Positions 1-34,055 of a stretch of 64,000 nt of DNA are shown in pieces. The stretch spans positions 4,763,547-4,827,546 of the forward strand of contig NZ_CP123897.1 of assembly GCF_029910655.1 (NCBI RefSeq). The letters run 5' to 3'. Each line of letters opens with the position of its first letter. The first letter of the stretch is position 1. The notes beneath the pieces were generated by a model. It made no database searches. It saw nothing but the letters and a program-made list of their open reading frames with translations, and was not told where the DNA came from. Both the position numbers and the translations under genes were made by a program. The stretch comes from Methylomonas sp. UP202 (GTDB taxonomy: Bacteria > Pseudomonadota > Gammaproteobacteria > Methylococcales > Methylomonadaceae).

Positions 1-2478
1 GGCCAAGGTGCCCAAGGCCGCTTGTCCACCTTGCAACAGCGGCTTGGCCAAGACCTGCAAGGTATGGCCGGCGCCGACTTCCAATAACAGCAATTGCCCG
101 AATTCGGCGCACAGCGTCTGCAAGCCGTCGGCGAAACGCACCGGTTTCAGCATGTGTTGTTGCCAATACGCAGCCGACGAATCGGTCGCATCGTACCAGC
201 CACCGCTCAAGTTGGAGACAAAGGGAATGGCATTGGGCCGCAGGTTCAGCGTTTGGAACGACTCGGCAAACTGGTCAGCCGCCGTCTGCATCAACGGCGA
301 ATGGAAAGCATGGGACACCGCCAAGGGATGATAGGCAATGCCTTGCTCTTTCAGGGTCGGCAATAAGCGATCGATGGCCGTTTGACTGCCGCTTAACACG
401 CATTGGTTTTCGGCATTCACCGCCGCCAACACCAAGTCTTCAGTCAACCAGGGCCGGCATTGCGCTTCCGTCGCCCTGACCGCCAGCATACCGCCGGACG
501 GCGCTTCCGCCATCAAGCGAGCGCGTTCCGCCACCAGCGTTAAAGCCTGTTCCAGGCTAAATACCCCAGCGAGACAGGCCGCGACGTATTCGCCCAAACT
601 GTGGCCTATCATCGCCGCAGGTGCTATGCCCCAGGCAATCAATTGCCTGGCCAAGGCGTATTCGAAAACAAATAACGCCGGCTGAGTATGTTCGGTTTGC
701 CGTAGCCGCTGCTCCGCCTGCTGCTCCTGCCCAGGCTCCGGAAACATCAACATCCTTAAATCCAAACCCAACAGCGCTTGTAAATAGTCGCAGCAAACAT
801 CCACTTCCTGCTTAAACACCGCTTCGCTCTGGTAAAGCGCCCGCCCCATGCCGACTTTTTGCGTGCCCTGGCCGGGAAACATAAACACCAGCGCCGGTTT
901 GACGGTTGCGTCATAACCCTCATCCGGGCAACGCAAGGCTTGCACCGCTTGCTCGAGGTTATCCGCGACGACGACGCACCGCAGCGGCAACTCCCGGCGA
1001 CCGACCGCTAGACTATAAGCCACATCGGCCAGCGACAATTCTTTCCGCTGGGTTAAATGCTCGGCCAGCGACACCGCCAGCCGCGCCAAGGCTTCCGGTG
1101 ATTTGGCCGATAAGGGCAAGATTTGCCGCGCTCTGCCGGCGTCGGCGGAATGCAGGATTTCGGGGAATTCTTCCAGCACCACGTGAGCGTTGGTGCCGCC
1201 GATACCGAAAGAACTGACGCCGGCGCGGCGCGGGCACTCGGTCCGCGGCCAATCCTGCAACTGTCGGTTGACGTAGAAAGGACTTTGGTGGAAATCGATG
1301 TTCGGATTGGCTTGATTGAAATGCAGCGACGCCGGGATTTGCTGGTGCCGCAACATCAATGCCGCCTTGATCAAACCGGCGATGCCGGCTGCGGTATCCA
1401 TATGGCCGAGATTGGTTTTAATCGAACCCAACGCACAATACTGCTTTTGCTTCGCCCTGGCGAAAGCCTGTTTCAGCGCGGCCACCTCGATCGGATCACC
1501 CAGCGGCGTCGCCGTGCCGTGGGCTTCGACATAACCGATGCTATCGGCCGATACGCCCGCCACGGCCAGGGCTTCGGCAATAACCGCCGCTTGGCCGTTG
1601 ACGCTGGGCGCGGTAAATCCCAGCTTATCGGCACCGTCGTTATTGACCGCCGAGCCTTTGATGACCGCATAAATCGTATCACTATCCCGTAGCGCATCCT
1701 CCAGGCGTTTGAGCAACACCAGCCCGGCGCCGCTGGCGGGTACCGTGCCGCCCGCCTGGGCGTCGAAGGCCCGGCAATGGCCGTCCGCCGAAGGAATTCC
1801 GCCTTCTTGGTAGAGATAGCCCGCCCGTTGCGGCACCAATAACGTCGCCCCGCCCGCGATGGCCGCGTCGCATTGATAATCCCACAGGCTTTGGCAGGCG
1901 TAATGCACGGTAACCAAAGACGTCGAACAGGCCGTATTGACCGCGACCGCTGGGCCTTTCAGATTCAATTTATACGCCAGCCGGGTGGCGGCAAAGTCTT
2001 TATCGCTGCCGATCAGCATTTGGTAAAAATCGGTCGATTCTTTCAGCCGGTAATCGGTCAATAAATGGCTAAGCAAATAGATATTCATGCCCACGCCGAC
2101 ATAAGCGGCAATATCGCCTTCGAAGCGGTCCGGGTCCAGCGCGGCCATTTCCAACAACTGCCAGGCGCATTCGAGCAAGACCCGTTGCTGAGGGTCCATC
2201 AGCTCGGCTTCGCGCGGCGTGTAACCGAACAAATGCGCATCGAAATTTTCGATGCCTTCGATCATGCCCTTGGCTTTGACATAAGCCGGCTGCGCCAACT
2301 GCGACGGCGAAACGCCGGCGGCAAGCAGTTCCTCGTCGGAAAAAAACCGTATGCCCTCTTCGCCCTGAATCAACAAGCGCCATAAGTCCTCGATACCGTC
2401 CGCTTTCGGAAAGCGGCACGCCATGCTGACGATCGCGATCGGCTCCAATTCGTTTTCCGCTGACTGATGTTCGTTCAT
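1..2478 (-). CDS. Type I polyketide synthase, KS-AT portion (3' end beyond left edge)
   Basis: This is the fifth protein of the assembly line and should extend the peptidyl chain handed over by the upstream NRPS. I translated it by eye: ATG at 2478, open to base 1 (826 codons). The ketosynthase spans about residues 13-435, with active-site Cys184 in NTACSTSL, the HGTAT histidine motif and KTNLGHM. The acyltransferase spans about 510-800, with GHSLGEY (Ser near 627) and the HAFH motif that normally marks malonyl-CoA specificity. The N-terminus has only about 12 residues before the KS, so no coiled-coil docking helix is visible, unlike the three upstream PKS proteins. It starts 8 bp after the NRPS stop, which implies co-transcription and probably translational coupling. 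Reductive domains, ACP and any thioesterase must lie left of base 1. The family call is firm; what follows the AT is unknown. Confidence 0.95.
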   Translation of the reverse strand, partial: MNEHQSAENELEPIAIVSMACRFPKADGIEDLWRLLIQGEEGIRFFSDEELLAAGVSPSQLAQPAYVKAKGMIEGIENFDAHLFGYTPREAELMDPQQRVLLECAWQLLEMAALDPDRFEGDIAAYVGVGMNIYLLSHLLTDYRLKESTDFYQMLIGSDKDFAATRLAYKLNLKGPAVAVNTACSTSLVTVHYACQSLWDYQCDAAIAGGATLLVPQRAGYLYQEGGIPSADGHCRAFDAQAGGTVPASGAGLVLLKRLEDALRDSDTIYAVIKGSAVNNDGADKLGFTAPSVNGQAAVIAEALAVAGVSADSIGYVEAHGTATPLGDPIEVAALKQAFARAKQKQYCALGSIKTNLGHMDTAAGIAGLIKAALMLRHQQIPASLHFNQANPNIDFHQSPFYVNRQLQDWPRTECPRRAGVSSFGIGGTNAHVVLEEFPEILHSADAGRARQILPLSAKSPEALARLAVSLAEHLTQRKELSLADVAYSLAVGRRELPLRCVVVADNLEQAVQALRCPDEGYDATVKPALVFMFPGQGTQKVGMGRALYQSEAVFKQEVDVCCDYLQALLGLDLRMLMFPEPGQEQQAEQRLRQTEHTQPALFVFEYALARQLIAWGIAPAAMIGHSLGEYVAACLAGVFSLEQALTLVAERARLMAEAPSGGMLAVRATEAQCRPWLTEDLVLAAVNAENQCVLSGSQTAIDRLLPTLKEQGIAYHPLAVSHAFHSPLMQTAADQFAESFQTLNLRPNAIPFVSNLSGGWYDATDSSAAYWQQHMLKPVRFADGLQTLCAEFGQLLLLEVGAGHTLQVLAKPLLQGGQAALGTLA

Positions 2479-2486
2479 GGTTGCGC

Positions 2487-5400
2487 TTAGCTGTTGATTA
2501 GATTTTTACGCCGGACGGTTTTTTGCCTCGACGCTTTAAGTTCGGCTTTGGCAACGGCGGCGGAGGCATCCGCGCCGCTGTCATCCAGAAAAGCCGCCAA
2601 TTTGGCTATCGTCGGATAGCGGAATAAATCAACGGTTTGTAAGGCGGGATACTGTGGTTGCAGCGCGTTCCAGACTTGCATCAACAATAACGAATGGCCG
2701 CCCAAATCGAAGAAACTCTCTTCGGTGCCGAAATCGTCGCGCTGCAATACCTGCTGCCAGATGGCCAACAGTTGTTTTTGAGTTTGGGTTTTTGGCTGAC
2801 CGGCAACGGGTTTGGGACCGTCGCTACGTTGAGGTTTGGGCAAGGCTTTGCGGTCGACTTTTCCGGAATGGGTCAACGCAAACGTTTCCAAATGAATAAA
2901 TTCGCTAGGCAGCATATAAGCGGGCAAATACTCCGCCAAGTAATCGCGCAGCTCGCGGGCCGACGAAAGCTTGCCGCGATAGTAAACCAGCAATTGCTGG
3001 TTGTCCGCCTGCGTTTGATTGATGACGGCCACCGCTTGCTCGATATCGGCTCTATCTTCCAGCCGGGCTTCGATCTCGCCCAGCTCTATCCGATAACCGC
3101 GGATTTTGGCTTGAAAATCGAGCCGTCCCAAGTATTCGATGCTGCCGTCGAGATGGCGAACGACCTGATCTCCGGTGCGGTACATGCGTTCGCCGGCGGC
3201 CGAAAAAGGATCGAGGATGAAGCGCTCGGCCGTCAAACCGGCGCGATGCCGATACCCCCTGGCCACGCCCTCCCCGGCTATCATCAACTCGCCGGGAAAA
3301 CCCGGCGGCAGCAGATTCAAGTCTTCATCGACCACGTACAACCGGGTGTTGGCCAAAGGCTCGCCTAGTTTGATCTTGCCGTCGCCCGTTACCAGGCAAC
3401 GGCTAGACCAAACCGTGGTCTCGGTCGGACCGTAGACATTCCACACTTCGCCAGCTCGCTGCCTAAGCTGGTCGGCCAAATTTAGCGGCAAGGCTTCGCC
3501 GCCGCACAACACCTTAAAGCCAGGCCTGCCTTGCCAACCGGAAGCGAGCAACAGGCGCCAACTGGCGGGCGTCGCCTGCATCAACGTAATATCGTGCTCT
3601 TGCAATAAAGCCTGTAAGACGTGGCCGTCAGCGCTTTGCAGGCTATCGGCCAATACCACGGTGGCGCCCACCGTCAGCGGCAAATACAACTCCAACGCGG
3701 CAATGTCGAACGCCAAGGTCGTCACCGCCAACAAGCGGTCGTCGGCAACGATGCCGGGCCGTTCCGCCATGGTCAGCATGAAATTAACGATATTTTTATG
3801 ACTGATTTGAACGGCTTTCGGCTTGCCGGTCGAGCCGGACGTGTAAATCACGTAAGCCAGATTATCGGGCCTGACCTTGACTTGCTCGCACCGCGTTTCG
3901 GCGGCGTCGGCCGATAGCCGGGCGACATCGCATGTGGCGACCGGAAACGCCGGCGCGGTCGAACCATACACCAGCACCAACGCCGCCCCCGAATCTTCGA
4001 CCATATAGTGCAAACGCTTGACCGGCAAATTCAAATCCAGCGGCAAATACGCGGCACCGGTTTTCAATACCGCCAGCAACGCCACGATCATTTCGATGCA
4101 ACGCGGCATGCAGATCGCGACGACGCTTTCGACGCCGATACCCAACGCCTGCAACTGCCCGGCCATGCGCTCGGCCCGCTGTTCCAACTCGGCATAGCTC
4201 AGCGATTGCTCGCCGAATGTCACGGCGGTTTTATTGGCGGACTGCCGCGCCTGCCGCTCGATCAGACTATGCAAACACAGTCCCGGCAGACAATGGCTGG
4301 CGACCGCCCGCCGGTCAAGCTGCACCAAATCTTGCTGCGCCGCTTGCGACAACAAGCCTATCCCCGACAGCAAAGCGCCAGGTGCGCTTATCATCCGCGT
4401 CAGGATGTCTTGCAAATGCCGTAACACACCTTGAATAGCGTCGGCGTCGAAGCGTTGCCGTTGATAGGAAATTTTCAAGCTCAATTCCCGGCCCGGCGTC
4501 ACCAGCAGCGTCAACGGCAAGTCGGTTTGCTCGTAAACTTGAAAATCGTTCAGCTGCAAGATCGATGAGGACTGGCTCAGCGCTTCGTCTATCGGATAGT
4601 TTTCGAAGATGAACAGCGTGTCAAACAGTGCCTGACCCGCCGGCACTTGACTCCAGCCTTGCATTTCGGCCAGTTGCAAATAAGTAAAAGGCTCACGCTC
4701 CATGCCGTCGTCCATCAATTGTCGCAACAGTTGTTCCACGGTTTGCCCCGATGCCAACTTCGCGCGTACCGGCACGGTGTTGATAAACAGACCCAGCATG
4801 TCGCCAACCCGCTCCAACTCGGCCGGCCGGCCGGAAACCGTCAAACCGAACAGAATGTCGCGGCTGCCGCAATACCGGCTCAGCAACACGACCCAAGCCG
4901 CCTGCAACACAATGTTGACCGTCACCCGTTGTTGCTGAGCAAACTGTTGCAAAGCGGCCGTCGTCTTACGATCCAAAACCGCTTGCGCTTGAGCAAACTC
5001 CGCCTGCCGGCTATGGCTGTCGCCACCGCTATCGATCGCCAGTTTGTTAACGTCGCTAAATCCATCGAGTTGCCGCCGCCAATAAGCCTCCATCGTGCGG
5101 CTATCCTGTTCGAGCAACCAAGCAATATAGTCGCGAAAAGGCCTTCTATCCGGCAAACACGGTTGCCGGCCGCTTACGTAAGCGGCATAAAGACCGAAGG
5201 CGTCCTCGATCAGTTTCGGCAAACTCCAGCCGTCCAGCAAAATATGATGATAGCTGCAAACAAACACCGATTCCGTGACACTCAAACGCAATAGGGCAAA
5301 GCGCAATAACGGCTGGGCTTTAACATCGAACGGCGTTTGCCTGTCTTGGCGTAAAAAGCTTGCCGATAATTGCTGCCGTTCCGCCGGCGACTTTTTGCTG

Positions 5401-8400
5401 TAATCGAGGTCCCGCCACACGAACGGCACATCATCAAACACCACTTGCAGTGGTTGCCGCGCGCCCGGCCAATCGAAGCCCGTCCTTAAAATCGAGTGCC
5501 GCCGCATCAATTCCCGCCAAGCTCGCCGCCAGGAATCGACTTGCAGCTCACCGCTGAAACGCCAACTGACTTGTTGCAAGTAGCTGCCGGATTGGCTGTC
5601 GAACACGCTGTGAAACAGCAAGCCTTGCTGTAACGGCGCGAGCGGATAAACATCCCGCACGCCGCCGCGCCGCCTCATGTCGCTCAGCCTTTGCTCGTCC
5701 GGCATTGCCAACTCGAAGCCGGATTCGACGGGTGCCTGGGCCAAAAGGCCACTCAAATGGCGTTTAAAATCGGCGAGCAATTGCAAAACGGTCGAACGAT
5801 CGAACTGTAACGGGCTGTAACGCAACTCCAGCCTTAGACAATCTTGATGTACCGCGCCATTAAAATCCATCAACAAGCCAAAATCCTGCCGGCCGGAGCG
5901 CTCGTCGCCGCGTCGTTCTTGCGCCTGGGCGATGAATACCGAAGCCTGTTTAGCCTTCTCGAAACGCCCCAAGTAATTGAAGCGAATACCGGTAGCCCGT
6001 TGTTCCGCATCCTCCAGTTTCCTTCGCAGAGTCGCGTCGGCGCTCAAATAACGCAAAACACCGTAACTCAAGCCCCGATGCGGCAAAGCGCGCATGGCCG
6101 CTTTGACAGCGGACAAGGCCGTTGCTAGGTTTGCCTCGACCGCCAACGGAAACAGCGAGGTAAACCAGCCAACGCTCCTGGAAACGTCCAAATCCTCGAA
6201 CACATTTTCCCGGCCATGACCTTCGAGTTCGATGACTAGCGTAGTTTTGCCCAAGCGTTGCCACAAGCTTTCCAGCAGCGCCGCCAGCAACACTTCTTCG
6301 ACGCTGGCTTGTAAGGCTCTCGGCGCCAGCATCAAGGCTTGAGTGATCTCATGGTCGAGTTGCAAGGACTCGACGACGGTATCGGCCAAGGTTATCTTGT
6401 TGCCGGCCGCATGGTCCAAGGGCAAGCGGGCAAAGCCATACTCACAATGGCGCAGCCAATAGGCTTGGTCGGGCAAGGTATTGGACCATTGCCGCAAGCG
6501 CTCGGCCCAAGCGGGAAAGGCACTGGTTTTTTTCGGCAAATTCGGGACTTGTCCGGCGCTTGCCGCCTGATAAGCCAGCTGTAAATCTTCCAACAAAATC
6601 CGCCAAGAGACGCCGTCCACCAACAAGTGATGCAACACCAAAAACAAACGGCTATTTCGGTCTTGCCCCTTCGCTTGGAACAACACGACCTTTAGCAACG
6701 GCGCATTGAGCCATTGCAGCGAAGCTTGGACGGCTTCGGCCTGCTCGGCCAAATCCTCGGCATCGCGGAAGGTTTTCAACTGAAGCACCTGCTCTATCTC
6801 ACCATCGGATGGGATATAAAGCTCGACCGGCGACCTGACTTGCATTCTGAGGACATCGTGATGATCGAGCACCGCCGCCAAGCTCTTCCGCAATGCGGCA
6901 ACGTCGATATCAGACGGCACTTCCAACAGCACTGACTGATTGAAATGCTGAACATCCTTGGTCACCGTCTCGAAAAAGTAATGCACTATCGGAGTAGGCA
7001 TCACCGTCCCCGTAACCCGTCCTTGCTCGGCGCTGGATTTTTCGGCCGCCTCGGCCGATTCGGCGAGAACGGCAATCGTCTGGGCGGAAAACAACTGCTT
7101 CAAATCCAGTCGGATCCCGGCTTGTCTTGCCTTAGCCACGATCTGAATGCTTAAAATAGAATCGCCGCCCAATTCGAAATAGTTGTCGTCGATGCCGATG
7201 CGGTCTTGGTTCAAGACTTCCCGCCAGATACCCACCAAGCGTTGTTCCACGGCATTGCGCGCTTCCCGGTAGGGCTGTTGGACTTGAATGTCCGGTTCTT
7301 TCAGCGCTTTGCGGTCCAGTTTGCCGCTAGCGGTCAACGGCAATTGCTCTAGCCTGACAGTTTGGCTCGGCCGCATGTAATCGGGCAGTTGCTGCAATTG
7401 CTGCTTGACGGCCTGATCGAAATCGGCCGCGTGGCTCACCACATAGGCCACCAAGCGTTTACTTTGCCCTTGGCTCCAAACCTTGACCGCCGCCTCTTGA
7501 ATCTCGGCATGCTGTTTGAGCACGCTTTCGATTTCGCCCAACTCGATCCGAAAGCCTCTGAGCTTGATTTGGCCGTCTTCCCGGCCTTGGTATTCGATGA
7601 CGCCGTTCGCCCGGTAGCGGCATATGTCGCCAGTCCGGTACAGCCTTTCGCCGTCGCCGAACGGATTGGGTACGAAGCGTTCCGCGGTCAGCTGCGGCTT
7701 TTGCTGGTAGCCCCGCGCCAAGCCGATGCCGGCGATATACAGTTCCCCGGACACACCGACCGGCACCGGCTGTAACTGGCCGTCGAGGATGTATAGGCGC
7801 AGGTTGTCGATCGGTTTGCCGATCGCGACGATGGGGCTGGCGGTGTCGTCTTCATGGCAAGGCCATTCGCTGACGTCGATCGCCGCTTCGGTCGGGCCGT
7901 AGAGATTGTAGAGACGCGCCGATGTCAATTTGCCGTAAACCTGTTGTTGCAGGCTCAACGGTAAGGCTTCGCCGCTGCAGATGATGCGCCGTAAGCTGTT
8001 GCAGTGTGCCGCTTCGGGGTCGTCGATGAAGGCTTGCAGCATGGACGGCACGAAGTGCAGGGTGTCGATGTGCTGGGCTTGGATCAGTTTGGCCAGGTAA
8101 TCGCTGTCTTTATGTCCGCCCGGTTTGGCGATGACCAAACGGGCGCCGGCGATCAACGGCCAGAAAAATTCCCAGACCGAGACGTCGAAGCTGTACGGGG
8201 TTTTTTGCAAGACGCTGTTTTGCCCGCTCAATGCGTAACGGCGCTGCATCCAGTTGAGCCGGTTGGCCAGCGCTTGATGGTGGTTGGCCACGCCTTTCGG
8301 TTGGCCGGTGGAGCCCGAGGTGTAAATCAGATAGGCGAGCTGTTGCGGATGGCATTCAAGGGCCGGCGCGCCGGCCGGTTGCTGGGCCAGCTCGGTTTGC

Positions 8401-11400
8401 AAGGCTTCGATGATCAGCACTTGGCCGGGATAATCTTGCAGCTTGGCGGCCAAGGCCTGCTGGGTCAGACACCAGCCGGCACCGGCATTGGCGATCATAT
8501 AGTCCAAGCGTTCTTGCGGGTAGTCGGGGTCTAGCGGCACATAAGCCGCGCCGGCCTTGACGATCGAATGCAGGCTGACCACCAACTCCAGGCTGCGCTC
8601 CATACACACCGCCACCAGGCTTTCGGTGCCGACGCCTTGCGAGATTAGATAATGCGCCAATTGGTTGCTGCGCAGCTCTAGTTCTGCATAAGTCCATTGG
8701 CTTTGTTCGAACACCAGGGCGATGGCCTCCGGCGTTTGCTTTGCCTGACGGCTCAACAACTCCGGGATCAAGGCCTCAGGATATGCGTACTCGGTGGCGT
8801 TCCAGTCTTCGAGACAACGCTTTCGTTCTTGGGCCTCAAGCAAGGCAAACTCGGCCAAGGGTTTAGCGCCGGCCGACAACAGGAAATTCAACGCCGATTT
8901 AAAATGCGCCAACAGCCTGTTGACGGTAGCGGCGGCAAAAACCTCGGCTTGGAACATGGCCTTGATTTGCAATTGTTCGCCCGGCACGACGACCAGCGTC
9001 AGCGGATAATTGGTTTGTTCCTTGAACTGCGCGGCAACGATTTTCAAACCCGCCTGTTCGTCATTCAGCAAGCCGGCGTCCAACGGATAATTTTCCAGCA
9101 CCAGCAAACTTTGAAACAAAGACTGGCCGGCCGCATGGCGGCCGCTGCATTCCACGATCTTGCTCAACGGTAAATAAGCGTGGGCATCGCGCTTGAACTG
9201 TTCGGCGGTCAGCGCTTGCAACCAATCACAGACCGATCGCCGGTTATCGATATGGGCCGCGACCGGAATCGTATTGATGAACAAGCCTACGACAGACTCA
9301 ATCCCCGGCAATTGCGGCGGCCGGCCGGAAACCGTCATGCCGAACACGACGTTTTGCTCCGAACTGTACCGGCTCAAGATCAAGGCCCAGGCCGCCTGCA
9401 ACAACACCGCTAGCGTGGTGCGCTCCTGTTTAACGAAAGCGCCGATGCGGCGGCTTAATTCCGCCTCCCAAACCGTCGCCGCGTCGGCATAACCGGCACA
9501 GGTTTTCGGTTCGACGCAAGGCAGCACGGTCGCGGCCTGAATCGCCGCCAACTGTTGTTGCCAATATTGCATGGCCGGCTGCGGGTCTTGCTGTGCCAGC
9601 CAATGCAGATAATCGGCAAACGGCCTGAGCGGTTTTGCCTGGTAGGCCTGTCCCTGCACCAACGCTTGATACTGCTTGGCAACGTCCTGCAAAACCAAAG
9701 GCAAGGACCAGCCATCCATCAATAAATGATGGTAACTCCAGAGTAAACAATATCGCCGCTCGCCCAGTTTAATTAAGCTCAAATGCGACAACGGGCCACG
9801 GCTGACGTCGAAGCCTTGCCCGGCTTGTTGCTGCTGCAATAGCGCCTGCCGTTGCCGCTGTTCGTCGGCCGCCATGGCGCTCCAGTCCAGTACCTGCCAC
9901 GAGCAAAACCCGGTTTCTATCAATTGCTGATAAGGTTTGCCGCCGCTTTGTTGCCAAATAAACACCCTTCTTAAAGCATCGTGGCGCAGAAAAACCGCCC
10001 ACCAAGCTTGTTTAAACAAATCGGCTTGCAGATCGCCCTCGAACGTCAAAACCACCTGTTGGCAGTAAACGCCTTTGTCGTCATCGTACAAGGCATGAAA
10101 CAGCATGCCTTCCTGAGTCGGCGACAACGGCAGGCATTGGTTATCGCCATCGGCGGCGGCGACCATCGATTGTTCGGTTTGTTTAGCCAAGCCGGCCAAT
10201 TCGGCAATCGTCTGGCCGAGGAATAAATCCTCGACCCGCAACTCAAGGCCGGCCTCTCTGGCTCTGGCCACGATCTGAATGCTTAAAATAGAATCGCCGC
10301 CCAATTCGAAATAGTTGTCGTCGATGCCGATGCGGTCTTGGTTCAAGACTTCCCGCCAGATACCCACCAAGCGTTGTTCCACGGCATTGCGCGCTTCCCG
10401 GTAGGGCTGTTGGGCTTGAATGTCCGGTTCTTTCAGCGCTTTGCGGTCCAGTTTGCCGCTAGCGGTCAACGGCAGTTGCTCTAGCCTGACAGTTTGGCTC
10501 GGCCGCATGTAATCGGGCAGTTGCTGCAATTGCTGCTTGACGGCCTGATCGAAGTCGGCCGCGTGGCTCACCACATAAGCCACCAAGCGTTTACTTTGCC
10601 CTTGGCTCCAAACCTTGACCGCCGCCTCTTGAATCTCGGCATGCTGTTTGAGCACGCTTTCGATTTCGCCCAACTCGATCCGAAAGCCTCTGAGCTTAAT
10701 TTGGCCATCTTCGCGGCCTTGGTATTCGATGACGCCGTCGGCCCGGTAGCGGCATATGTCGCCGGTCCGGTACAGCCTTTCGCCTTGACCGAACGGATTG
10801 GGTACGAAGCGTTCGGCGGTCAGCTGCGGCTTTTGCTGATAGCCGCGCGCCAAGCCGATGCCGGCGATGTACAGTTCGCCGGACACGCCGATCGGCACCG
10901 GCTGCAGTTGGCCGTCGAGGATGTATAAACGTAGGTTGTCGATCGGTTTGCCGATGGCAACTATCGCGCTGGCGGTGTCGGCTGCGTCGCAAGCCCATTC
11001 GCTGACGTCGATCGCCGCTTCGGTCGGGCCGTAGAGATTGTAGAGACGCACCGATGGCAGCTTGCCGTAGACCTGTTGTTGCAGGCTCAACGGTAAGGCT
11101 TCGCCGCTGCAGATGATGCGCCGTAAGCTGCCGCAGTGTGCCGCTTCGGGGTCGTCGATGAAGGCTTGCAGCATGGACGGCACGAAGTGCAGGGTGTCGA
11201 TGTGCTGGGCCTGGATCAGTTTGGCCAGGTAATCGCTGTCTTTATGTCCGCCCGGTTTGGCGATGACCAAACGGGCGCCGGCGATCAACGGCCAGAAAAA
11301 TTCCCAGACCGAGACGTCGAAGCTGTACGGGGTTTTTTGTAAGACCCGGTCTTGCTCGCTCAATGGGTAACGCCGCTGCATCCACTGGATCCGGTTGGCC

Positions 11401-21904: not shown

Positions 21905-21906
21905 CT

Positions 21907-24900
21907 TCAATCCATAGCCGCCAAACGCCGTTCCAATAAAGCCGAAAGCTGCTGTTCCGAAAAATCGTCGAGATTGTCGCTCAAGGGCTCCTCTTCCGCG
22001 CCGAATTCCGTTGCCAACTGTTGACTAAGATAAGCTAACAGCGCCTCAATGGTCGGATAGTCGAAAAGCATAGTCGAGGCCAGTCGCAATTCCAACGTCT
22101 GGCCTAATTTTCGGCTTAACTCCATCGCCAATAAAGAGTCGAAGCCGATATCGAACAAACGCTGCCGGGGCGCCAACCCAAGGCTTTCCGGATTCCGCAA
22201 CACCTGGGCGATTCCCTGCCGCACGGCTTGTTCCAATAAAGCCGGCCGCCGGGCAGCGTCGCTTTGCCGCCATTGCTGAATCAAACTCTCCGACTGAGTA
22301 TCGTGGCCAGCCTCGTTAGCCGCCATCGTTCGATAATAATTCGGCACCTCGAACGGTAAGGCGGCAAAAAACGCCGGCCAGTCCACCGGCATCACCGCCG
22401 CCTGCGGTAAATCTTCAGTCAACAAACGCTCGAATAAAGCCAAGCCCTGCAGCGGTTGAATCAGGGCCAAGCCTTTTTCGGCCATCGCCTCAGCCGCACC
22501 GGCCAGCATGCCCTCGCCGCTCCAGCCGCCCCAGTTAATTGTCAACGCCGCTAAACCTTGGTGTTTTCGGTTCAGCATCAGCGCATCGGCATAGGCATTG
22601 GCCGCCGCATAATTGCCCTGCCCCGGCGCCCCGGTCAATGCGGCCAACGATGAAAACACCGCGAAAAACGCCAGTTCCGGGAACGATTGATCTAAAAACC
22701 GCAACGCGCTGACTTTAGCCCGCCAAGGCCGCTCGAAATCGGCTTGATTCATCTTCAACAAAGACGCATCGCTCAATGCGCCGGCGGCATGGACAATGCC
22801 GGCCAAGGGCGGCAAGGACTGTAATTGCGCCATCAAAGCGCTGACGCCTTCCGCTAGCGCCAAGTCGGCCGCGACTCCGATAATTTTCGCGCCTTGAGCT
22901 GCCAATGCCTGCAACTTCAACGGGTCGATGGCGGTTAAGCCCTTGCGGCTGGCAATCAGCACGCTATCCGCGCCGTGTTCAACCAGCCACTCCACGACCG
23001 CAAAGCCCAAGGCGCCGGAACCGCCGGTAACCAAATACGTCTTGTCGGCCGCTATGGTTAATGCCGCGCGGTTTTCCGGACGCCAAGGCAACAATCTCGC
23101 GGCATAACATTGCCCGCCCCGCAAGGCCAACTGTTGTTCGCCGCTGATGCCGGACAACAACCGCGCCAGCTTGCCATTTTCGGCGGTATCGATAGCGTCT
23201 ACATCCAATGCTTGCCAAATCCGCTGCGGAAACTCCAGTGCCGCGGTCTTAAGCAAAGCCACGCAAGCGCTTTGTTTCGGGCAAACGGCCTCGAGGTCGA
23301 TCACAGCGCCTCCCCGAGTCAGCAGAGTGACTTTAGCCGCGATATTCCGGATTTCCAACGTCTGAACCAACGTTAAAAAGCCTAAACAGACGCTGCTGTC
23401 CTCTTGGCCTAAAAAGTCCTCGGCGCAATAAACCAAATGCAAGGGTTTCGAGCTTGCCGAAAAAGTCTGCCAATACCCGGAATCTCGCAACTGTTCGGGA
23501 CTCATCAAGCTCAAGCCCACGACTTGGGTCCGTAATTTAGCCAACAACCGGTTTGCCGTTACCGTGCCGATGCACAAAACGTGCTCGCCAGCCGGCTGTT
23601 CGGTCAGTTCGGTATCGGCTAGCAATGTCCAACCCGGCCGACAAAGCCAATCCTCCGGCCGTTGATCCGCCGCTACCGCCAACGCTTGTTTGGCTAATGG
23701 CTGAAAACTGACGCCTTGCATAGCCAATGTCAGGTTTTCACGGTCTTTCAGGATCACATCGACCTGACAAGCCTGGTCTGTTCTGGACGACAATCTGGCA
23801 AGACATGAGCCGCCAAACTCGAGCGGCCGGTAAAAATCGATACGCTCTACCGCGAACGGTAGCCAGGTTTCGTCGCCGGCGGTTTCGCCGACCGCTATGC
23901 CGGCGGTTTGCAGACAACCATCCCAAATAGCCGGATGCAAGAGATGTCCCGGTTCACATGCTCTGGGTTTAAAGCCGGCAAAGACAGTCTGTCCGGCGAT
24001 CTCAATGCTCTCCAGCACCTTAAAGGTCTCGCCGTACACGATGTCTTTTTGCCGAAATTGCCGGTAGAGCTTGTCCGCTGCAAGGCTTTGCCGCTCGTCG
24101 TCAGCAGCCGGTGCTTCGAAATCTTTAAAGCTCATGCAAACATCGGTTTCGGCACTGATATGACGATGCCAGCCGGCAGCGTCCAAGCGGGAAAAAATAC
24201 CGAGTTGATATTGGCCGCCGACGGCCTTAGCCTTAATTTGCAGCTGAGTTTCGCTATCCCGCGACAAAAGCAAAGGCCGTTCGATCCGCAGATTTTTCAA
24301 TGCGAGGGCCGACGATTTACTCAACTGTTGCCCGGCTTCGAACAATATTTCCAGCAACACCGCGAACGGTGCCAATAGCCGGCCGAAGACTTGGTGTTCG
24401 CTCAAATAGGCCTGTTCCCTCGGCGCCAGCCAAGTTTCGAAATAAACCGACTGCGAATCGGCTAGCTCCAAACGCTTGCTCAGCAACGGCGATAAGGTTT
24501 GCGTTGTTTCCACTCGTCGACTTTTTAACGCGCTGTCGGGCAGCCAATAACGTTTACCGGAAAAAGGGTACACCGGTAGCGGCGGGCAGTACGCTTCAGG
24601 CGCTTCGCCGAAAATCGCTTGCCAATTCAAATCAAAACCGCCGGTATATAAGCGGGCGGCGCAATGCAGCACACTATCGGCTTGCTTGGGCTGCAAACTG
24701 GCAAATATCCGCTCCGCCTCGATCGCGTTGGCCGACAACATGGGCGCCAAAACCGGCTTCGCTCCGCATTCCAAAAACACGTCGCACCCCAATTGCCGTA
24801 ACGCGCCCACATTGTCGGCAAAGGCGACCGGTTGCCGGCAGTGTTGCAGCCAATAATCGGCCCAGGCGATGTCATCGCCGATCACTCGGCCGGTAACATT

Positions 24901-27249
24901 AGACATCAACGGCATGAAGGCTTTGCCGTACGCCGTTTGTTCGAAGATCCGCCTCAACGCCGGTAATACTGGCTCCATCATCCGGGAGTGAAAAGCATGC
25001 GAGACCGCTAGCGGCGTACACTGTACGGCACTCTCCGAAAAATATTGCCTAGCCTGCTCGATCAGTACGCTAGAGCCCGCCAAGACGCAATGCCTAGGCG
25101 AATTGACCGCCGCGATGTCCAACTCCGGCCAGTTAGCCGCCAATAAAGCGTTAAGCCCTTCGCGACTTGCCGCGACAGCCAGCATCGCGCCTCCGCTCGG
25201 GGCTTGCTGCATCAGTTGCGCCCGGGCTACCACCAAGCTTATAGCCTGTTCCAAGCTGAATACGCCGGCGACGCAAGCCGCGACGTATTCGCCCAGACTG
25301 TGCCCCATCACCGCATCCGGCTCTATGCCCCAAGACTGCCATAGGCGAAACAGCGCGTAATCGACCGCGAAAATGGCCGGCTGCGCATAGCAGGTTTGTT
25401 GCAATTGCGCGTCGCTGCTGTCGAATAGCAGTTGCTGCAGCGGTATAGGCAAAGATTTTTGCAAATATTCGGCGCATTGATCGATGGTTTGCCTGAAAAC
25501 CGGCCAGCGCCGGTATAAATCTTGGGCCATGCCGGGATACTGCGAACCCTGACCGCTGAACACCATCGCCAATTTTGGCTTTTGCCGGCCTTGCCCGGAG
25601 CGGTATAAACGCCCATCGTCCCGACCTGTTGCCAACGCCGACAAAGCCTGTTCGATCTGCTGTCGGTCGGCGGCGACGATCAGCGCGCGGTGTTTCAAAT
25701 CCGCCCGGCTAACGGCGGCGCGATAACACACCGCATGTAAATCGGCATCGTGCGCAGCCAGCCAGTGTTGATATGCCGCCGCCAGCGCCGTTAAGGAAGC
25801 CTCGCTGTTGGCCGAGAGCTTTAGCGCCAAACCCCGGCCCCGTTCGACAGGGTGTTCCGCATTCCGAGTCGGCGCTTCCGCCAGCAATACGTGCACATTG
25901 GTGCCGCTCAAACCAAAGGCGCTAACGCCGGCTATCCGCGTTTGTCCTTCCTCCACTTGCCACGCCTCGAACTTTGTCGCCACTTTCAGCGGTATCGCCT
26001 GCCAAGGAATATGGGCGCTGGGCGTGCTAACGTTCAAATGCGGCACCCGCATGCGCTGTTGCAACATCAAGACGGCCTTAATTAATCCGGCGATGCCCGC
26101 CGCGCCTTCCATATGACCGAAATTGGTTTTCAAGGAACCGATATAAAGCGGATTGGCCGCGGCGCGACCACCGCCCAACACGCTGTTCAACGCGCCGACT
26201 TCGATCGGATCGCCCAAGGCCGTGCCGGTGCCGTGAGCTTCGATATAACCGACATCGGCCGCCGTCAACAGCGCATCGGCCAAGGCCGCTTTCAATACGG
26301 CTTCCTGTGCCCGTTCGCTGGGTACGGTCAAACCGCTGCTACGGCCGTCGTGATTGGCGGCGCTGCCCTTGATCACTGCGCAAATCGGATCGCCTGCCGC
26401 CAACGCATCACTAAGCCGCTTCAATACCACCAGCCCAACACCGTCGCCACGACCGATGCCGTCGGCCTTCGCATCGAAGGTTTTGCACAAGCCGTCCGCC
26501 GCCAGCATCATCGCCTGACTTTCGGTAATCGCGGCACGCGGCGATAGCTGCAAATTGACGCCACCGACCAAGGCCATATCGATTTCGTTGCCGCGCAGGC
26601 TTTTCACCGCCAAATGCACCGCCAACAACGATGACGAACACGCGGCATCGATGGCCATCGCCGGGCCTTGCATACCGTAATAATAGGCCAAGCGGCCGGC
26701 CAGAATACTCGGCGCGTTGCCGGTACCCGTGTGAACGTCGATAGCGCTGTCGTCTTTGATCAGCTCGGCATATTCCTGCGTCATGCAACCGATATACACC
26801 CCGCTACGGCTATTGCGTAAGGTTTTGGGATGAATGCCGGCGCGCTCGAAAGCTTGCCAGCTGGTTTCCAGCAACAAGCGTTGCTGCGGGTCCATCTGTT
26901 CGGCTTCGCGAGCGGCAATGGCAAAAAAATCGGCATCGAAGCGGTCGATATCGCTTAAAAAAGCGCCGTAACGGCTGCTGATTTTGCCGGGCGTTTGAGC
27001 CGGTTCGGCATAATATTCGGCTAGCGACCAGCGCTGTTCCGGTACTTCGCCACGGGCATTTTTGCCTTCCGCTAAAAACTGCCATAAAGCCTCGGGAGAA
27101 TCGCAAGCGCCGGGAAAACGGCACCCGATCGCCAGCACGGCGATCGGCTCGTGCGCGGCCTGTTGATAGTGGGCCAACTGGCCGCGCAACTCTCGCAACT
27201 CGTCCAAGGCCCTGCGCATTAAGGCTTGTTGTTTCTCCGACTCAGTCAT
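21907..27249 (-). CDS. Type I polyketide synthase module, KS-AT-DH-KR-ACP (second PKS)
   Basis: About 1780 residues; one extension module. KS: DAACSSSL (Cys204), HGTGT, KTNFGHMEGA. AT: GHSLGEY (Ser651) and HAFH, indicating malonyl-CoA. DH: HQVFGRLLAP fits HxxxGxxxxP near 950, and DGCLQ fits DxxxQ near 1115, so dehydration should occur. KR: TGGSGALG near 1405 with FSSLAALTG and GQGNYAAAN. ACP: GFDSL near 1704. There is no enoylreductase between DH and KR, so the expected unit is an enoyl group. I take ATG at 27249 as the start: the ATGACTGA overlaps the upstream stop by 8 bp, and GGAAAG precedes it. The longer reading to 27321 runs back into the upstream coding sequence and adds unrelated residues. 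The C-terminal helix (FSEQQLSALLERRL) resembles PKS docking tails. Confidence 0.95.
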   Translation of the reverse strand: MTESEKQQALMRRALDELRELRGQLAHYQQAAHEPIAVLAIGCRFPGACDSPEALWQFLAEGKNARGEVPEQRWSLAEYYAEPAQTPGKISSRYGAFLSDIDRFDADFFAIAAREAEQMDPQQRLLLETSWQAFERAGIHPKTLRNSRSGVYIGCMTQEYAELIKDDSAIDVHTGTGNAPSILAGRLAYYYGMQGPAMAIDAACSSSLLAVHLAVKSLRGNEIDMALVGGVNLQLSPRAAITESQAMMLAADGLCKTFDAKADGIGRGDGVGLVVLKRLSDALAAGDPICAVIKGSAANHDGRSSGLTVPSERAQEAVLKAALADALLTAADVGYIEAHGTGTALGDPIEVGALNSVLGGGRAAANPLYIGSLKTNFGHMEGAAGIAGLIKAVLMLQQRMRVPHLNVSTPSAHIPWQAIPLKVATKFEAWQVEEGQTRIAGVSAFGLSGTNVHVLLAEAPTRNAEHPVERGRGLALKLSANSEASLTALAAAYQHWLAAHDADLHAVCYRAAVSRADLKHRALIVAADRQQIEQALSALATGRDDGRLYRSGQGRQKPKLAMVFSGQGSQYPGMAQDLYRRWPVFRQTIDQCAEYLQKSLPIPLQQLLFDSSDAQLQQTCYAQPAIFAVDYALFRLWQSWGIEPDAVMGHSLGEYVAACVAGVFSLEQAISLVVARAQLMQQAPSGGAMLAVAASREGLNALLAANWPELDIAAVNSPRHCVLAGSSVLIEQARQYFSESAVQCTPLAVSHAFHSRMMEPVLPALRRIFEQTAYGKAFMPLMSNVTGRVIGDDIAWADYWLQHCRQPVAFADNVGALRQLGCDVFLECGAKPVLAPMLSANAIEAERIFASLQPKQADSVLHCAARLYTGGFDLNWQAIFGEAPEAYCPPLPVYPFSGKRYWLPDSALKSRRVETTQTLSPLLSKRLELADSQSVYFETWLAPREQAYLSEHQVFGRLLAPFAVLLEILFEAGQQLSKSSALALKNLRIERPLLLSRDSETQLQIKAKAVGGQYQLGIFSRLDAAGWHRHISAETDVCMSFKDFEAPAADDERQSLAADKLYRQFRQKDIVYGETFKVLESIEIAGQTVFAGFKPRACEPGHLLHPAIWDGCLQTAGIAVGETAGDETWLPFAVERIDFYRPLEFGGSCLARLSSRTDQACQVDVILKDRENLTLAMQGVSFQPLAKQALAVAADQRPEDWLCRPGWTLLADTELTEQPAGEHVLCIGTVTANRLLAKLRTQVVGLSLMSPEQLRDSGYWQTFSASSKPLHLVYCAEDFLGQEDSSVCLGFLTLVQTLEIRNIAAKVTLLTRGGAVIDLEAVCPKQSACVALLKTAALEFPQRIWQALDVDAIDTAENGKLARLLSGISGEQQLALRGGQCYAARLLPWRPENRAALTIAADKTYLVTGGSGALGFAVVEWLVEHGADSVLIASRKGLTAIDPLKLQALAAQGAKIIGVAADLALAEGVSALMAQLQSLPPLAGIVHAAGALSDASLLKMNQADFERPWRAKVSALRFLDQSFPELAFFAVFSSLAALTGAPGQGNYAAANAYADALMLNRKHQGLAALTINWGGWSGEGMLAGAAEAMAEKGLALIQPLQGLALFERLLTEDLPQAAVMPVDWPAFFAALPFEVPNYYRTMAANEAGHDTQSESLIQQWRQSDAARRPALLEQAVRQGIAQVLRNPESLGLAPRQRLFDIGFDSLLAMELSRKLGQTLELRLASTMLFDYPTIEALLAYLSQQLATEFGAEEEPLSDNLDDFSEQQLSALLERRLAAMD

Positions 27250-30200
27250 CGCTCTGTCCGCTTTCCCATTTCGACAATTCCCGCTCCAACAGCACCGCAA
27301 TATCCTCTTCTTCCTGATCAAACGCTTCCGTCGGCGACTTTTCCTGTCCGGCCTGCTCGCTGAACAACGCCGGGAAAACCTCTAGGCTGATATATGCCAA
27401 TAATTCGTCGACCGACGGATATTTGAACGCCAGCGTGGACGGTAAAGCCGTCTGGGTGGATTTTTGCAAACGATTGCGTAATTCCAGCGTCATCAAAGAA
27501 TCCATGCCCAACTCGGCAAACCCGATTCCCGCAGCCAATTGCCCAAGGTCGTGCAAGCCAAGCACCGCAGCGACATGCTCGGTCAAATGCCGGTGCAAAA
27601 ACCGCCGCCGCTGCTCGAGCGGCAACAGGCCAAGCTGTTCGGCCAGGGTCTGCCGGTTTTGCTCAACCGGCTCGAAGGCTTTGGTCAACGACGAACGGTT
27701 AAATTTGAAGTGCCGCCAATCGACATTGAATAAACCGACCGGCGCCGGAAGACGCTCTCGATTGTCGGACAAAAGCCGCTCGAGAAACGCAAACGCTTGC
27801 TCGGCGCTTAATTTGCCGATCCCCGCCAAAGCCAAACTATCGGCAGTTTGAATATCGGCCATGCCCGCGCCGGCCCAAGGCCCCCAGCCCATACTCAAGC
27901 CCGGCAAGCCTTGCTGCCGCCGCCATTGCATCAAGGCATCCATAAACCCGTTAGCGGTCGCGTAATTGCCTTGTCCGGGCGCGCCCAACCAAGCCGCCAT
28001 CGAGGAATAGGCCACGAAACAATCCAAGTTCAATCCCTGGCTAAAACGATGCAAATTCCATAAGCCAAACACTTTGGGTTTCAGCACTTGCGCCAGCCGT
28101 TCACTATCTAGATTGGCCACAACGCTGTCCTGCAACACCCCGGCGGCATGGAAAATCCCACGTAAATCTTCGCCATGCTCAGTCAAAATGGCTTGTACTT
28201 GTTGCGCATCGGCAATATCGGCTTTAAGCTCGATCACTTCGGCGCCCAAACGCAAAATCGCCTCTAACCGGTCTTTGCCGCTGTCCCGAACGCCGTGGCG
28301 CGAGACTAACACCAGTTTAGCGACGCCTTTTTCCGCCAACCAGTGCGCCGTTTGCAATGCCAAAGCCCCGGAACCGCCGGTCAGTAAATAAGTGCCCCGC
28401 GCGCTAAAACCCGGTTTTTGGGCGACGCTAAACGTATGCAACCGCGGCGAAAAACAATAGTCGCCGCGTAAAGCGATTTCGGTTTCTTGCGCGTGACGCG
28501 TTAAAACTGCCACGACATGCTCGGCGGTAAGCCGGGTTTCATCCCAATCCAACCATTGGCAAGGATTTAGCGGATACTCGTGGTTAAAACTACGCAATAA
28601 CCCGGATAAGCCCTCGAGAGTCGGATCGAGCACATCTGTATCATTAACCGGCCTGGCTTGGCGGCTTAACAGCGCTATTTTGACCCCGGCCCGTTCGCCG
28701 ATGGCGGCGGCCTTTTGCAAAAATCGCAATAAAACAACGGCGTTTTGTGCCGCTTGCGACGCCATATTCTCGGCCAACGAAGCGCTATCCAAACACAACA
28801 AAACGCCTTCGGCGTTTAGGTCCGAGGCGATAAACCCGTCAAAATCCAGCCATTGCGCCCAGGCCGCCGTATCGGCGAAGGCTTTGGCCAAGGCATTCCC
28901 TGTAACCAGCCAACGCGAAGCAAGCGGTTCTACTGTCGCCTTGGACAGCGCCTCGGTTTGACGCCAAACGATGGCGTAAGCGTTTTTCTCCACCGTCAAG
29001 GCTTGCCGCATCGCATTGCTGTCGGCTTTACGCAAGCTAACGGCGGATAATTCGGCAAGGACTTGCCCCGATTCGTTGAATAATGTCACCCGGCCTTGAA
29101 TGCTGCCTTGCCGGCCGATTTCCCCATCCGTCAAGCACGCATGGCACCATAACTGGGTCAAGCGGTTTTCCGCCGCCAATTGCAATTGCTCGACCGCTAC
29201 CGGTATGTAAGTCTCGGTGTATTGCTCCGGCACGGCGGCACCCAACAATTGAAAGCAGGCATCGATAAGTCCGGGCGGCAGTCCGAAGGTCTTATCCTGA
29301 GCTGTCAAGGAGCGAATCCTGGCTAAAGCCTGATGTTGACCTTTGAATAATTGTTCGAACCAGCGAAAACTTTCGCCCAATTGCACGTGTTGCAGCGTCA
29401 GCAATTGGTAGAAATTTTGCACGTCAACCGACTCCGGGCATTGCCGGCGCAGTTCCTTCAAATCCAGATCGGCGAAGTTAGCCGGGGCCGCTACCATCGA
29501 CGCCGACAGATGCTCGGTAAACTCGGCCGCTTTTTCGTCGAACAAGCTAATCACTTTGATTTGATATTGCCGCTCGCCGAGCGGCGTCAGCCCCACTTGT
29601 AATAAACGCTGTTCCTGTTCCGCCAGTTGCAGGGCTTCGATAAATTCAATATCTTGGATTTTGAACACCTGCGTCGGGTAGCGCTCCCGGCCGACGGCAA
29701 TCAAGGCCGACAAGTGACAAGCCCCCGCGACCACCACCCGATCGAAGACTTTATGATCGAGCAAGAACGGCAAATGCCGGCAAGCTATCCGCCCTTGGTA
29801 CAAATTCCCAGTCCAGAAAGGCGACGTTATCGCTTGTTGCAACATCGGATGGATGCTCTCGCCAAGCGCGACATCGGCTTTTACCGGTCTTGGGCTGAAC
29901 CAATAGCGCTGTCTTTTCCAGGGATAATTCGGCAAACTCAGCAAACGCCGGCGCCGGCCTTGGTAAACGCTTGGCCAATCCAAGTCGTGGCCGGCTTGGT
30001 ATAAAACCGCCGCGACTTGTTGGCAGGCGCGCCAGTCGTTGCCCTTGGCATCCAGGGAACACGCGCCGGCAAGATTCGTTTGTTGCACCAGGCTACTCAA
30101 TACCGGCCGACCGCCAAATTCGATAAAGAAATTAGCACCTAGTCGCGCGGCCGCCGTCAATGCCTGTTTGAATAAAACCGGCTGCCTGACATGCCGAAGC

Positions 30201-32587
30201 CAATAGTCGACGCTACGCAAGACTTCGCTTTCCGCTTTGCCGGTCAGCGTTGAAATAAACGGCCATTGCGGTTTATTGAAGGCAATCCCGTGCAAACAGG
30301 TTTCGAAATCCGCCAACATGCTATCGACCTGGGGCGAGTGAAAACCCCGCTTGACCGGCAAGACTTTAGTAAACCAATCCTGTTGCTGGGCCCGCACGGT
30401 AAAATCGTTAATCGCTTCGCCGGCACCGGACACCACAAGCTGTTGTTCGGCGTTCACCGCGGCAATAGCCAGTTTGGATTCCAGACCGCTGAGCAATTGA
30501 CGGACTTGTTCTTCATTGGCGTAGACGGCCAGCATGGCGCCGTCTTCCGGCAAGGCCTGCATCAACCGGCCTCGGCAAACCACCAAGCGCAAGGCCGCCT
30601 GCAAATCGAATACCCCGGCGATACAAGCCGCGGCATATTCGCCCAAGCTATGGCCCAACACCATGGCGGGCTTTACCCCCCACGACAGCCACATCTTGGC
30701 CAATGCGTATTGCAATGAAAATAAAGCCACTTGCTCGTGCTCGGTCTGCTCCAAACGAACCGAGGCTTGGTCGCCATAAAGCAATTCAGTAACTTGAGTC
30801 CGATTTTGTTTAACCAATTCGGCGTCGCAAGCATCCAAGGCGGCCTTGAATACCGGCTGCCCGTTGTATAAGGCCCATCCGGCACCGGCTCTAACACTGC
30901 CTTGTCCGGCGAATAAAAATACCGGTGCAATAGGCGCTTTAAGATTCGATTGCCAAGTTTTTTCCGCCAACGAGGTTTGTAAAAACCCTTGCAACTGTTC
31001 GACGCTATCGACTACCGCAGCCAGTCGCCAATTAAAATCGTCTCGGCCGATATTGGCGCTGAAGCAAAAATCCGCCAAGTCTTCAGCTTTTAATGTAGCC
31101 AATTGCTTAAGGTGGCTTGCCAGCCAATCCTGCAAAGCCGGTTCCGATTTGGCCGACAATTTGAACAAATAGCTGCCTTCCGCATCGCTCGACACAGCGG
31201 TTTGCTGGCAATCGGCCGCCGCCACGAGTACCTGGGCATTGGTGCCGCTCAAGCCGAACGAACTGACGATCCCCGCTTTGGACGGTAGCGGCCAGGCCGC
31301 AGCCTGTGTTGCAACTTTCAGCGGATAATCCTGCCAGGGAATGGCCGGATTCGGCTGGTCGAAATGCAAACTGGCCGGAATCCGGTTATGGCCTATCGCC
31401 AAAATCAGTTTAATTAAACCGGCGATTCCTGCCGCGGCTTCCAAATGGCCGATATTGGTTTTCACCGAACCCAACAATAATGGCTCGGTTGACTGCTTGC
31501 GCAGTACCTCGGCCAAAGCCTGGTATTCGATGGGATCGCCGAGCGAAGTCCCGGTACCGTGAGTTTCGATATAAGCAATCTCGCCGGCCCGCGCATTAGC
31601 CATTTGCAATAATTTTTTCAATAACAGTTCTTGAGCCCGGCCGTTTGGCACCGTTAAGCCGCTGCTGCGGCCGTCGTGGTCAACGGCGGAACCGCGGATC
31701 ACCGCCAAGACTCGGTCACCGTCGCGTTGCGCGTCGGACAAACGTTTCAGCGCCACCATACCCGCACCTTCGCCGCGCCCATAGCCGTCGGCCGAGGCGG
31801 CGAAACTCTTGCAGCGGCCGTCTTTAGCCAAGGCTTTGGCTGCCGACATCAACACAAATGCGCTGGGCGACAGCATCAATTGCACACCGCCGGTTAAGGC
31901 CAAATCGCACTCTTGAGCCCGTAGACTTAAACAAGCCTGATGCAAAGCCACCAGCGAAGAAGAACAAGCGGTATCGATAGAAAAACTAGGGCCTTGCAGA
32001 CCTAGTTGATAAGACAACCGACCCGAAGCAAAACAAAATCCGTTACCGGTACCGGTATAAAGTTCGGCGCCGGCCATATCCCCCGACTCACGTAATAAAT
32101 GTAAATAGTCTTGCTGGCCGATACCAATAAATACACCGGTTTGACTGTTCTTCAAGCGTCGGCTGGCAATGCCGGCATGTTGTAAGGTTTCGTGGGCGAG
32201 CTCCAGTAACAGGCGCTGCTGAGGGTCCAGGCTGTTGGCTTCGCGGGGAGGAATGGCGAAGAATTCCGCGTCGAAACCGTCGATTTGCTGCAGAAACGCC
32301 GCTTCGCCGACATAAGTGCTACCCGGCCTTTCACCGCTAGGATCGAAAAATAAAGAATGGTCCCAGCGCTCTTTAGGGATGGGACCGACCGCATCCACTT
32401 CGTCCTGCAGCATTTGCCAGTATTGTTCGACGGAGTCGGCTTTTCCCGGAAAACGGCAAGCCATACCGATAACGGCAATCGGCTCAGTCTGCGAGCGCTG
32501 ATAATGTTCTAACTTAGCCTGTAATCTTTCAATCGCCAAAAAGGCTTTTTGTAAAGGCGTTAGGGAGTGATCCACGTGATTTACCAT
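27242..32587 (-). CDS. Type I polyketide synthase module, KS-AT-DH-KR-ACP (first PKS of the line)
   Basis: 1781 residues. The N-terminal helix (about residues 8-33) resembles a docking coiled coil. KS has DTACSSSL (Cys208), HGTGT and [10 protein letters not shown], so it is an elongating rather than a decarboxylating loading KS. AT has GHSLGEY (Ser647), but the specificity motif is RGFH (His750) instead of HAFH or YASH. The DH histidine is present (near 944), but the motif reads [10 protein letters not shown], with Asp for the Gly and Ala for the Pro of HxxxGxxxxP; DACFQ keeps the second Asp. Dehydration is therefore less certain here. KR has TGGSGALA near 1400 and YSSMAAWLG with [12 protein letters not shown] has GMDSL near 1696. 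It is the first gene of the operon and has no loading domain, so the starter must come from a protein encoded elsewhere. ATG at 32587, with AGAGGG some 15 nt upstream. Confidence 0.95.
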
Positions 32588-33955: not shown

Positions 33956-33972
33956 ATAACGTGAATTTGCAA

Positions 33973-34049: not shown

Positions 34050-34055
34050 AAAACT

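Follow-up and report, generated by a model that had tools for sequence, protein, structure and literature searches.

MT-GNAT loading modules methylate malonyl-ACP and then decarboxylate it, giving propionyl, isobutyryl or pivaloyl starters. GdmN and the novobiocin carbamoyltransferase act on non-peptide hydroxyls. Among methanotrophs, Methylobacter makes the secondary metabolite tundrenone; this organism belongs to the same order as the host described here, and its metabolite is much smaller than the molecule predicted below. For the thiamyxins, which are made by a myxobacterial PKS-NRPS with a GNAT start, an isobutyryl start is proposed to arise via double methylation and GNAT decarboxylation (PMC10100342). 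DLKNFGSDVK is given as a homoserine (Hse) code in PMC7524897, and the heinamide report states that carbamoyl-Hse had not been found in other natural peptides and that the carbamoyltransferase could not be assigned (PMC8471579).

The locus described here, in Methylomonas sp. UP202, shares this Hse code with the heinamides B and the laxaphycins (PMC7524897), together with a predicted O-carbamoyl-Hse and a cupin-like oxygenase in the cluster (PMC8471579). It differs from them in residue order and in having a carbamoyltransferase in the cluster where none was assignable there. Moreover, laxaphycins start from a β-amino fatty acid via a FAAL and an aminotransferase, which were not found here: all ten AMP-binding domains detected in the scanned cluster proteins sit in NRPS modules, and there was no aminotransferase among the Pfam hits of these proteins. 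The loading module resembles those of AprA, SxtA, GphF and CurA: its methyltransferase (MT) and GNAT are homologous to theirs along the whole of these domains, and a carrier domain comes next. It differs in having a GNAT Arg replaced by Trp and in lying in a gammaproteobacterial methanotroph. While an isobutyryl start is common to our prediction and the thiamyxin proposal, the thiamyxins are thiazole-rich peptides and their loader retains only a methyltransferase remnant (PMC10100342). Finally, the carbamoyltransferase is homologous to GdmN and the decarbamoylnovobiocin carbamoyltransferase over residues 1-664 of 667, but here its neighbours are NRPS modules.

Results

The window is a stretch of 64,000 nucleotides (G000:C1:4763547-4827546) of this genome (G000; 5.68 Mb in two contigs), that of a Methylomonas koyamae-like methanotroph; genes, domains, gene order, conservation and specificity positions were observed directly. 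The original prediction, made from the window alone, placed three KS-AT-DH-KR-ACP proteins, a four-module NRPS and a further KS-AT in one operon, and the reading frames and Pfam domains agree with this (Table 1). PKS1, PKS2 and PKS3 each contain one KS, AT, DH, KR and carrier domain, with KS E-values of 6e-89 to 8e-94; the in-window part of PKS4 is KS-AT; and adjacent genes share up to about 8 bases or leave an 8-base gap. The PKS2 frame can also open at 27321, and the ATG at 27249 was chosen as the likelier start. In the DH domain of PKS1, the His motif is degenerate and the usual Gly and Pro are absent. Opposite the TubC_N docking domain of NRPS A stands the tail of PKS3, EDMLEGEI. We take the AT motifs of the PKS proteins to be malonyl-type and the motifs at their ends to be docking motifs.

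Reading left of base 1 for the remaining domains, a thioesterase and transport, as had been proposed, uncovered further NRPS and PKS genes, a thioesterase and an ABC transporter. The cluster spans ~95 kb (genome positions 4700461 to 4796133), of which the window shows about a third, and encodes not five but 12 megasynthases (seven PKS and five NRPS proteins), all of whose frames are open from start to stop. It comprises seven elongating PKS modules, with the in-line AT arrangement KS-AT-(DH)-(KR)-ACP in 7/7 PKS proteins, and ten NRPS modules, with ten AMP-binding and ten carrier domains in NRPS A to E and a thioesterase at the end of NRPS E. By domain content, the cluster is a predicted modular cis-AT PKS-NRPS hybrid assembly line. 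The original prediction covered its middle third and interpreted that part well.

Table 1. Features of the cluster. Coordinates are window positions unless a genome handle is given; residues and domain functions are predicted.
Feature	Position	Strand	Description
PKS1	27242..32587	-	1781 aa, KS-AT-DH-KR-ACP, KS DTACSSS
PKS2	21907..27249	-	KS-AT-DH-KR-ACP
PKS3	16652..21910	-	1752 aa, KS-AT-DH-KR-ACP
NRPS A	2487..16655	-	4722 aa; TubC_N, (C-A-PCP)x2, (C-A-PCP-E), (C-A-PCP); Ser, Ser, Ser, Gly
1,232-bp perfect direct repeat, Ser1 A-domain copy	13873..15104	-	Within NRPS A
1,232-bp perfect direct repeat, Ser2 A-domain copy	10708..11939	-	Within NRPS A
Putative epimerization domain of NRPS A	5730..6980	-	Condensation-family, after third Ser carrier
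PKS4, in-window part	1..2478	-	N-terminal 826 of 1883 aa, KS-AT; gene runs past base 1
PKS4	2478 to left of base 1	-	1883 aa
NRPS B	Next after PKS4		1554 aa
266-aa protein	G000:C1:4754812-4755612		Between NRPS B and NRPS C
NRPS C	After 266-aa gene		2558 aa
Carbamoyltransferase	Directly before NRPS D		667 aa
NRPS D	After carbamoyltransferase		1091 aa
NRPS E	After NRPS D		2400 aa, C-terminal thioesterase
Cupin_8/JmjC-like protein	After NRPS E		303 aa
ABC transporter	After Cupin_8 protein		554 aa
Stand-alone thioesterase	Beside PKSx3, ~10 kb further left		229 aa
PKSx3	~10 kb further left		3279 aa
PKSx2	~10 kb further left		2185 aa
PKSx1	~10 kb further left		1589 aa
tRNA-His, tRNA-Arg, tRNA-Pro	33879..34132	-	Right edge of cluster; not part of machinery

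The ~10 kb between the PKSx genes and the remaining megasynthase genes holds eight other genes, including those for a symporter, binding proteins and a Band_7 protein. The 266-aa protein had no Pfam or NCBIfam match and a single PDB match (E 0.13), and its predicted structure was too poor to use (mean pLDDT 31.5); the gene is present in G000 and in G165, and no such frame was found in G088. The ABC transporter is closest to cyclic-peptide and PRK10522 exporters, with scores below the curated cut-offs. A megablast search of window positions 1-25000 against plasmids gave no match, and in a promoter and terminator scan before PKS1, sites were no more numerous than in shuffled sequences.

The acyl head of the original prediction is incomplete: no loading domain was detected in PKS1-3 with Pfam, and the probable loader protein, PKSx3, is encoded ~75 kb further left. 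Residues 1-500 of PKSx3 give matches to 7uci (8.8e-134), AprA MT1 6b39 (6.5e-132) and three AprA families of Pfam; the GNAT part, which is followed by a carrier domain, matches 7ucl/7uci, CurA 2ree and GphF 6mfc. With methyltransferase, GNAT and carrier all present, the start of PKSx3 is a predicted AprA/SxtA/GphF-type MT-GNAT loading module. Its methyltransferase motif FDAYHAFS agrees with AprA, differs from FDAFQGFS of 7uci and presumably favours two methylations. Among the GNAT residues that we take to be needed for decarboxylation, Trp and His are kept in G000, Thr is replaced by Ser as in GphF, and the Arg in the YRP motif of CurA, GphF and 7uci is replaced by Trp (YWP) in both G000 and G088. 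Because of this Arg replacement, decarboxylation by the PKSx3 GNAT domain is unsure; Arg and Thr are both named among the decarboxylation residues in the thiamyxin report (PMC10100342). The loader would most likely make a branched starter, isobutyryl.

In the pathway that we propose, the chain would start on the MT-GNAT-ACP loader of PKSx3 and pass through the KS-AT-DH-CMT-ER-KR-ACP module of the same protein, KS-AT-DH-CMT-KR-ACP of PKSx2 and KS-AT-KR-ACP of PKSx1, which would hand it to PKS1. The three modules of PKS1-3 would build a triene, to which NRPS A would add Ser-Ser-D-Ser-Gly. PKS4 would extend Gly by C2, with ketoreduction and probable α-methylation. NRPS B would then add D-Gln, NRPS C D-Thr and Val, NRPS D homoserine, and NRPS E an Ile/Val-like residue and Ala, followed by release by the thioesterase. 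The Cupin_8 protein probably hydroxylates one residue, and the ABC transporter, being of the cyclic-peptide-export kind, would carry the product out. The joining of the PKS blocks, the residues derived from codes, the starter, the carbamoylation site, the stereochemistry and any cyclisation are proposals of this model.

PKS4 had been described as KS-AT, which is accurate inside the window; read beyond it (L004:5374-11025), the protein is a full KS-AT-KR-MT-carrier module, in which a C-methyltransferase-like domain is inserted in the KR. In 5/5 aligned loci, this domain interrupts the KR's catalytic half, at a point that by eye follows the second strand. C-methylation is taken as likelier than O-methylation, the reaction considered first, because the closest solved relatives of the domain are the C-methyltransferases of CurJ and DisA. 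Acting on Gly plus C2, PKS4 would give 4-amino-3-hydroxy-2-methylbutanoate. The predicted structure of the KR-MT part was too poor to use (mean pLDDT 48.9).

Besides TubC_N, Pfam identifies four AMP-binding domains, four carrier domains and five domains of the Condensation family in NRPS A. At the specificity positions, three of the A domains have DVWHISLID and one has DILQLGVVW, which we take to specify Ser and Gly, respectively. The last Condensation-family domain of the third Ser module scored 185.7 bits, the lowest of 20 Condensation-family matches in the genome; from its position and weak score, and by the rules that we assume for such calls, it is taken as an epimerization domain. The earlier reading of Ser-Ser-D-Ser-Gly and then a malonyl-type extension is correct as far as the window reaches.

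A perfect 1,232-bp direct repeat is limited to the Ser1 and Ser2 A domains of NRPS A; in the C-domain stretches preceding it, identity between modules 1 and 2 is about 44-59%. Modules 2 and 3 are 83-99% alike in a later stretch that runs into the carrier region. At the protein level, identity among the three Ser A domains is 81-90% within G000 and 84-92% within G088, while corresponding domains of the two genomes are 77-79% identical. The three Ser codes are retained in both of these genomes, which are the ones showing Ser modules. We regard the repeat as a sign of very recent recombination, and the identities fit repeated A-domain exchange within each cluster. The serine run, which had been singled out as unusual, is therefore in part a product of recombination and accounted for by recent A-domain copying.

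The line continues past the ketide after Gly with which the original prediction closes: six more A domains and the thioesterase come after it. The specificity positions of these domains are DAQDIGVVD, DFWNVGMVH, DAFWLGGTF, DLKNFGSDV, DAFFLGVSF and DLFNNALTY. We assume that DAQDIGVVD specifies Gln, DFWNVGMVH Thr, DAFWLGGTF Val, DAFFLGVSF Ile or Val, and DLFNNALTY Ala, and the Condensation-family domains after the Gln and Thr modules are taken as epimerization domains. NRPS D is predicted by its code DLKNFGSDV to be a homoserine-activating module. The same code series was found from Gly onward in G165, G020 and G234, and including the three Ser in G088, with the variants DALWLGGTF, DAFLLGITF, DAFFLGVTF, DLYNNALTY and DLKSFGADV among the relatives. 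In G088, NRPS D has 784 aa and its A core is missing. In a class-wide search of 369 genomes, matches to NRPS D outside the window genome had at most 43% identity. Hse-type codes (DLKNFGTDI, DLKNLGMDI) also occur in large NRPS loci of other Gammaproteobacteria (G427, G452). In total, the product is most likely branched hydroxy-trienoyl-Ser-Ser-D-Ser-[Gly-C2]-D-Gln-D-Thr-Val-Hse(carbamoyl)-Ile-Ala, for which the linear acid is computed as C60H100N12O21 with [M+H]+ 1325.720, the form minus water as 1307.709, and the latter plus one hydroxyl as 1323.704.

The carbamoyltransferase has Carbam_trans_N and Carbam_trans_C domains (Pfam) and matches GdmN (5e-149) and the decarbamoylnovobiocin carbamoyltransferase (3e-144); by domains and homology, it is a predicted GdmN-type O-carbamoyltransferase, and it shares 99% identity with the Methylomonas koyamae R-45383 enzyme. 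Its gene immediately precedes that of NRPS D, and the enzyme would most likely O-carbamoylate homoserine. Close carbamoyltransferases (at least 72% identity) were found in 7/311 Methylococcales genomes and form one clade with 99/99 support. An Hse-code NRPS D directly follows the carbamoyltransferase gene in 4/7 loci (G000, G165, G020, G234). In the other three, what follows is the A-less NRPS D (G088), the beginning of a C domain where the contig ends (G089, L013) and a gene with no NRPS motif (G228, L015). At three Hse-code loci (two in G427, one in G452), 36-40 kb were read and no match to the carbamoyltransferase was seen; therefore, Hse alone does not require such an enzyme, and the link is particular to the cluster of the methanotrophs. 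The window genome has a second NRPS cluster (G000:C1:1286892-1317279), which includes a carbamoyltransferase paralogue (59%) along with sulfotransferase-like genes and an ABC transporter; the A codes near this paralogue are DSALIAEVW, DVWHLSLVD and DVWHISLVD, with no Hse code among them.

A contig of a Methylobacter MAG (G088:C110) has the 12 megasynthase genes in the same order, at 66-75% protein identity, the value for NRPS D spanning 499 residues only. Here PKSx1 and PKSx2 are separated by an additional gene (628 aa), the 266-aa gene is absent, and of the eight between-block genes four have moved to the opposite end of the contig. On contig C219 of G165, the stretch from the end of NRPS A to NRPS E is present, as are the first 450 aa of PKSx3, and the NRPS part recurs in two further MAGs beyond the Methylobacter MAG. 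The loader was matched at 1e-60 in ten of the 311 Methylococcales genomes, at 64% identity or more in five (G000, G165, G088, G020, G228) and at 37-44% in the other five. The genomes with a close carbamoyltransferase are these five close-loader genomes together with G089, which is 80% complete, and G234. In G234 (99% complete), the NRPS part is present, with NRPS C split in two frames, and the loader was not matched at 1e-60, which counts against a joined line in that genome.

Among 37 Methylomonas genomes, PKS1 DNA was found in G000 and G165, and G187 gave a 629-bp match at 70%. parC is present in 37/37 of these genomes and the adjoining tRNA genes in many, not all. Two such sites were read: in G164 the tRNAs are not followed by a cluster, and in G161 (L076), another Methylomonas species, an unrelated 4495-aa frame that is NRPS-like lies at the same tRNAs. 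The cluster is thus patchy and may have moved; the tRNA-His/Arg/Pro group is a possible insertion hot spot.

Discussion

A loader is present in the PKSx block but an in-line release domain is not, and for PKS1 to NRPS E the reverse holds; this complementary content argues for one line. It is unlikely that PKSx1-3 instead make their own polyketide, freed by the stand-alone thioesterase, with PKS1 primed by an acyl group from primary metabolism. The free thioesterase adjoining PKSx3, the ~10 kb of other genes separating the blocks and the missing loader match in G234 would fit such a pair of pathways. However, docking-like elements, judged by eye, lie at the end of PKSx1 (a tail) and at the start of PKS1 (a helix), and PKS1-3 would be left without a loader. 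Moreover, both blocks occur together in G088 and, as the start of PKSx3, in G165; the eight between-block genes are also on the G088 contig, although four lie at its other end; and the close loader is confined to genomes with the close carbamoyltransferase clade (5/5 occurrences). Partial decay of the line, or production of shortened products, is less probable still: the Arg to Trp change in the GNAT domain, the degenerate DH of PKS1 and the missing A core in NRPS D of G088 point towards it, but the open frames of all 12 PKS/NRPS genes in the window genome and the gene order kept between genera speak against it. Altogether, we consider it probable that the window is the middle of one ~95-kb PKS-NRPS line, with loader, PKSx, PKS and NRPS proteins acting in the proposed order and Hse being carbamoylated.

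As to the carbamoyltransferase, there is a real, if smaller, chance that it acts on a hydroxyl of serine, threonine or a polyketide alcohol rather than on homoserine. Several free hydroxyls are predicted in the product, the non-peptide substrates of GdmN and its novobiocin counterpart would be in line with this, the paralogue lies near A domains without an Hse code, and no NRPS D follows the gene in L015; on the other side stand its position before the Hse-code module in four genomes and before the A-less NRPS D in G088, as well as the existence of carbamoyl-Hse in heinamides B, as described in PMC8471579. That the product is already known, from a cluster with a close MIBiG match, seems very improbable: our literature search was limited to open-licence papers, and a described product of this kind was not found there; moreover, a passage of PMC12810054 calls the polyketide clusters of Methylobacter unexplored. 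The pathway is large and, as a modular PKS-NRPS, ordinary in kind, and its lipopeptide product is apparently undescribed. Tentatively, at somewhat less than an even chance, we suggest that an Hse module and its own O-carbamoyltransferase are first linked here, in a new family of carbamoylated branched hydroxy-trienoyl lipopeptides from methanotrophs of several genera, with an enzyme of the type sought for the heinamides.

The 1,232-bp repeat is a recent, naturally occurring case of A domains being exchanged within one NRPS. If the proposed reading is true, the cluster would supply a clustered candidate enzyme for O-carbamoyl-homoserine and would make the question of the heinamide carbamoyltransferase testable. 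Likewise, a large and costly lipopeptide pathway, absent from the open literature searched, would be shared by methanotrophs, the organisms that control methane release.
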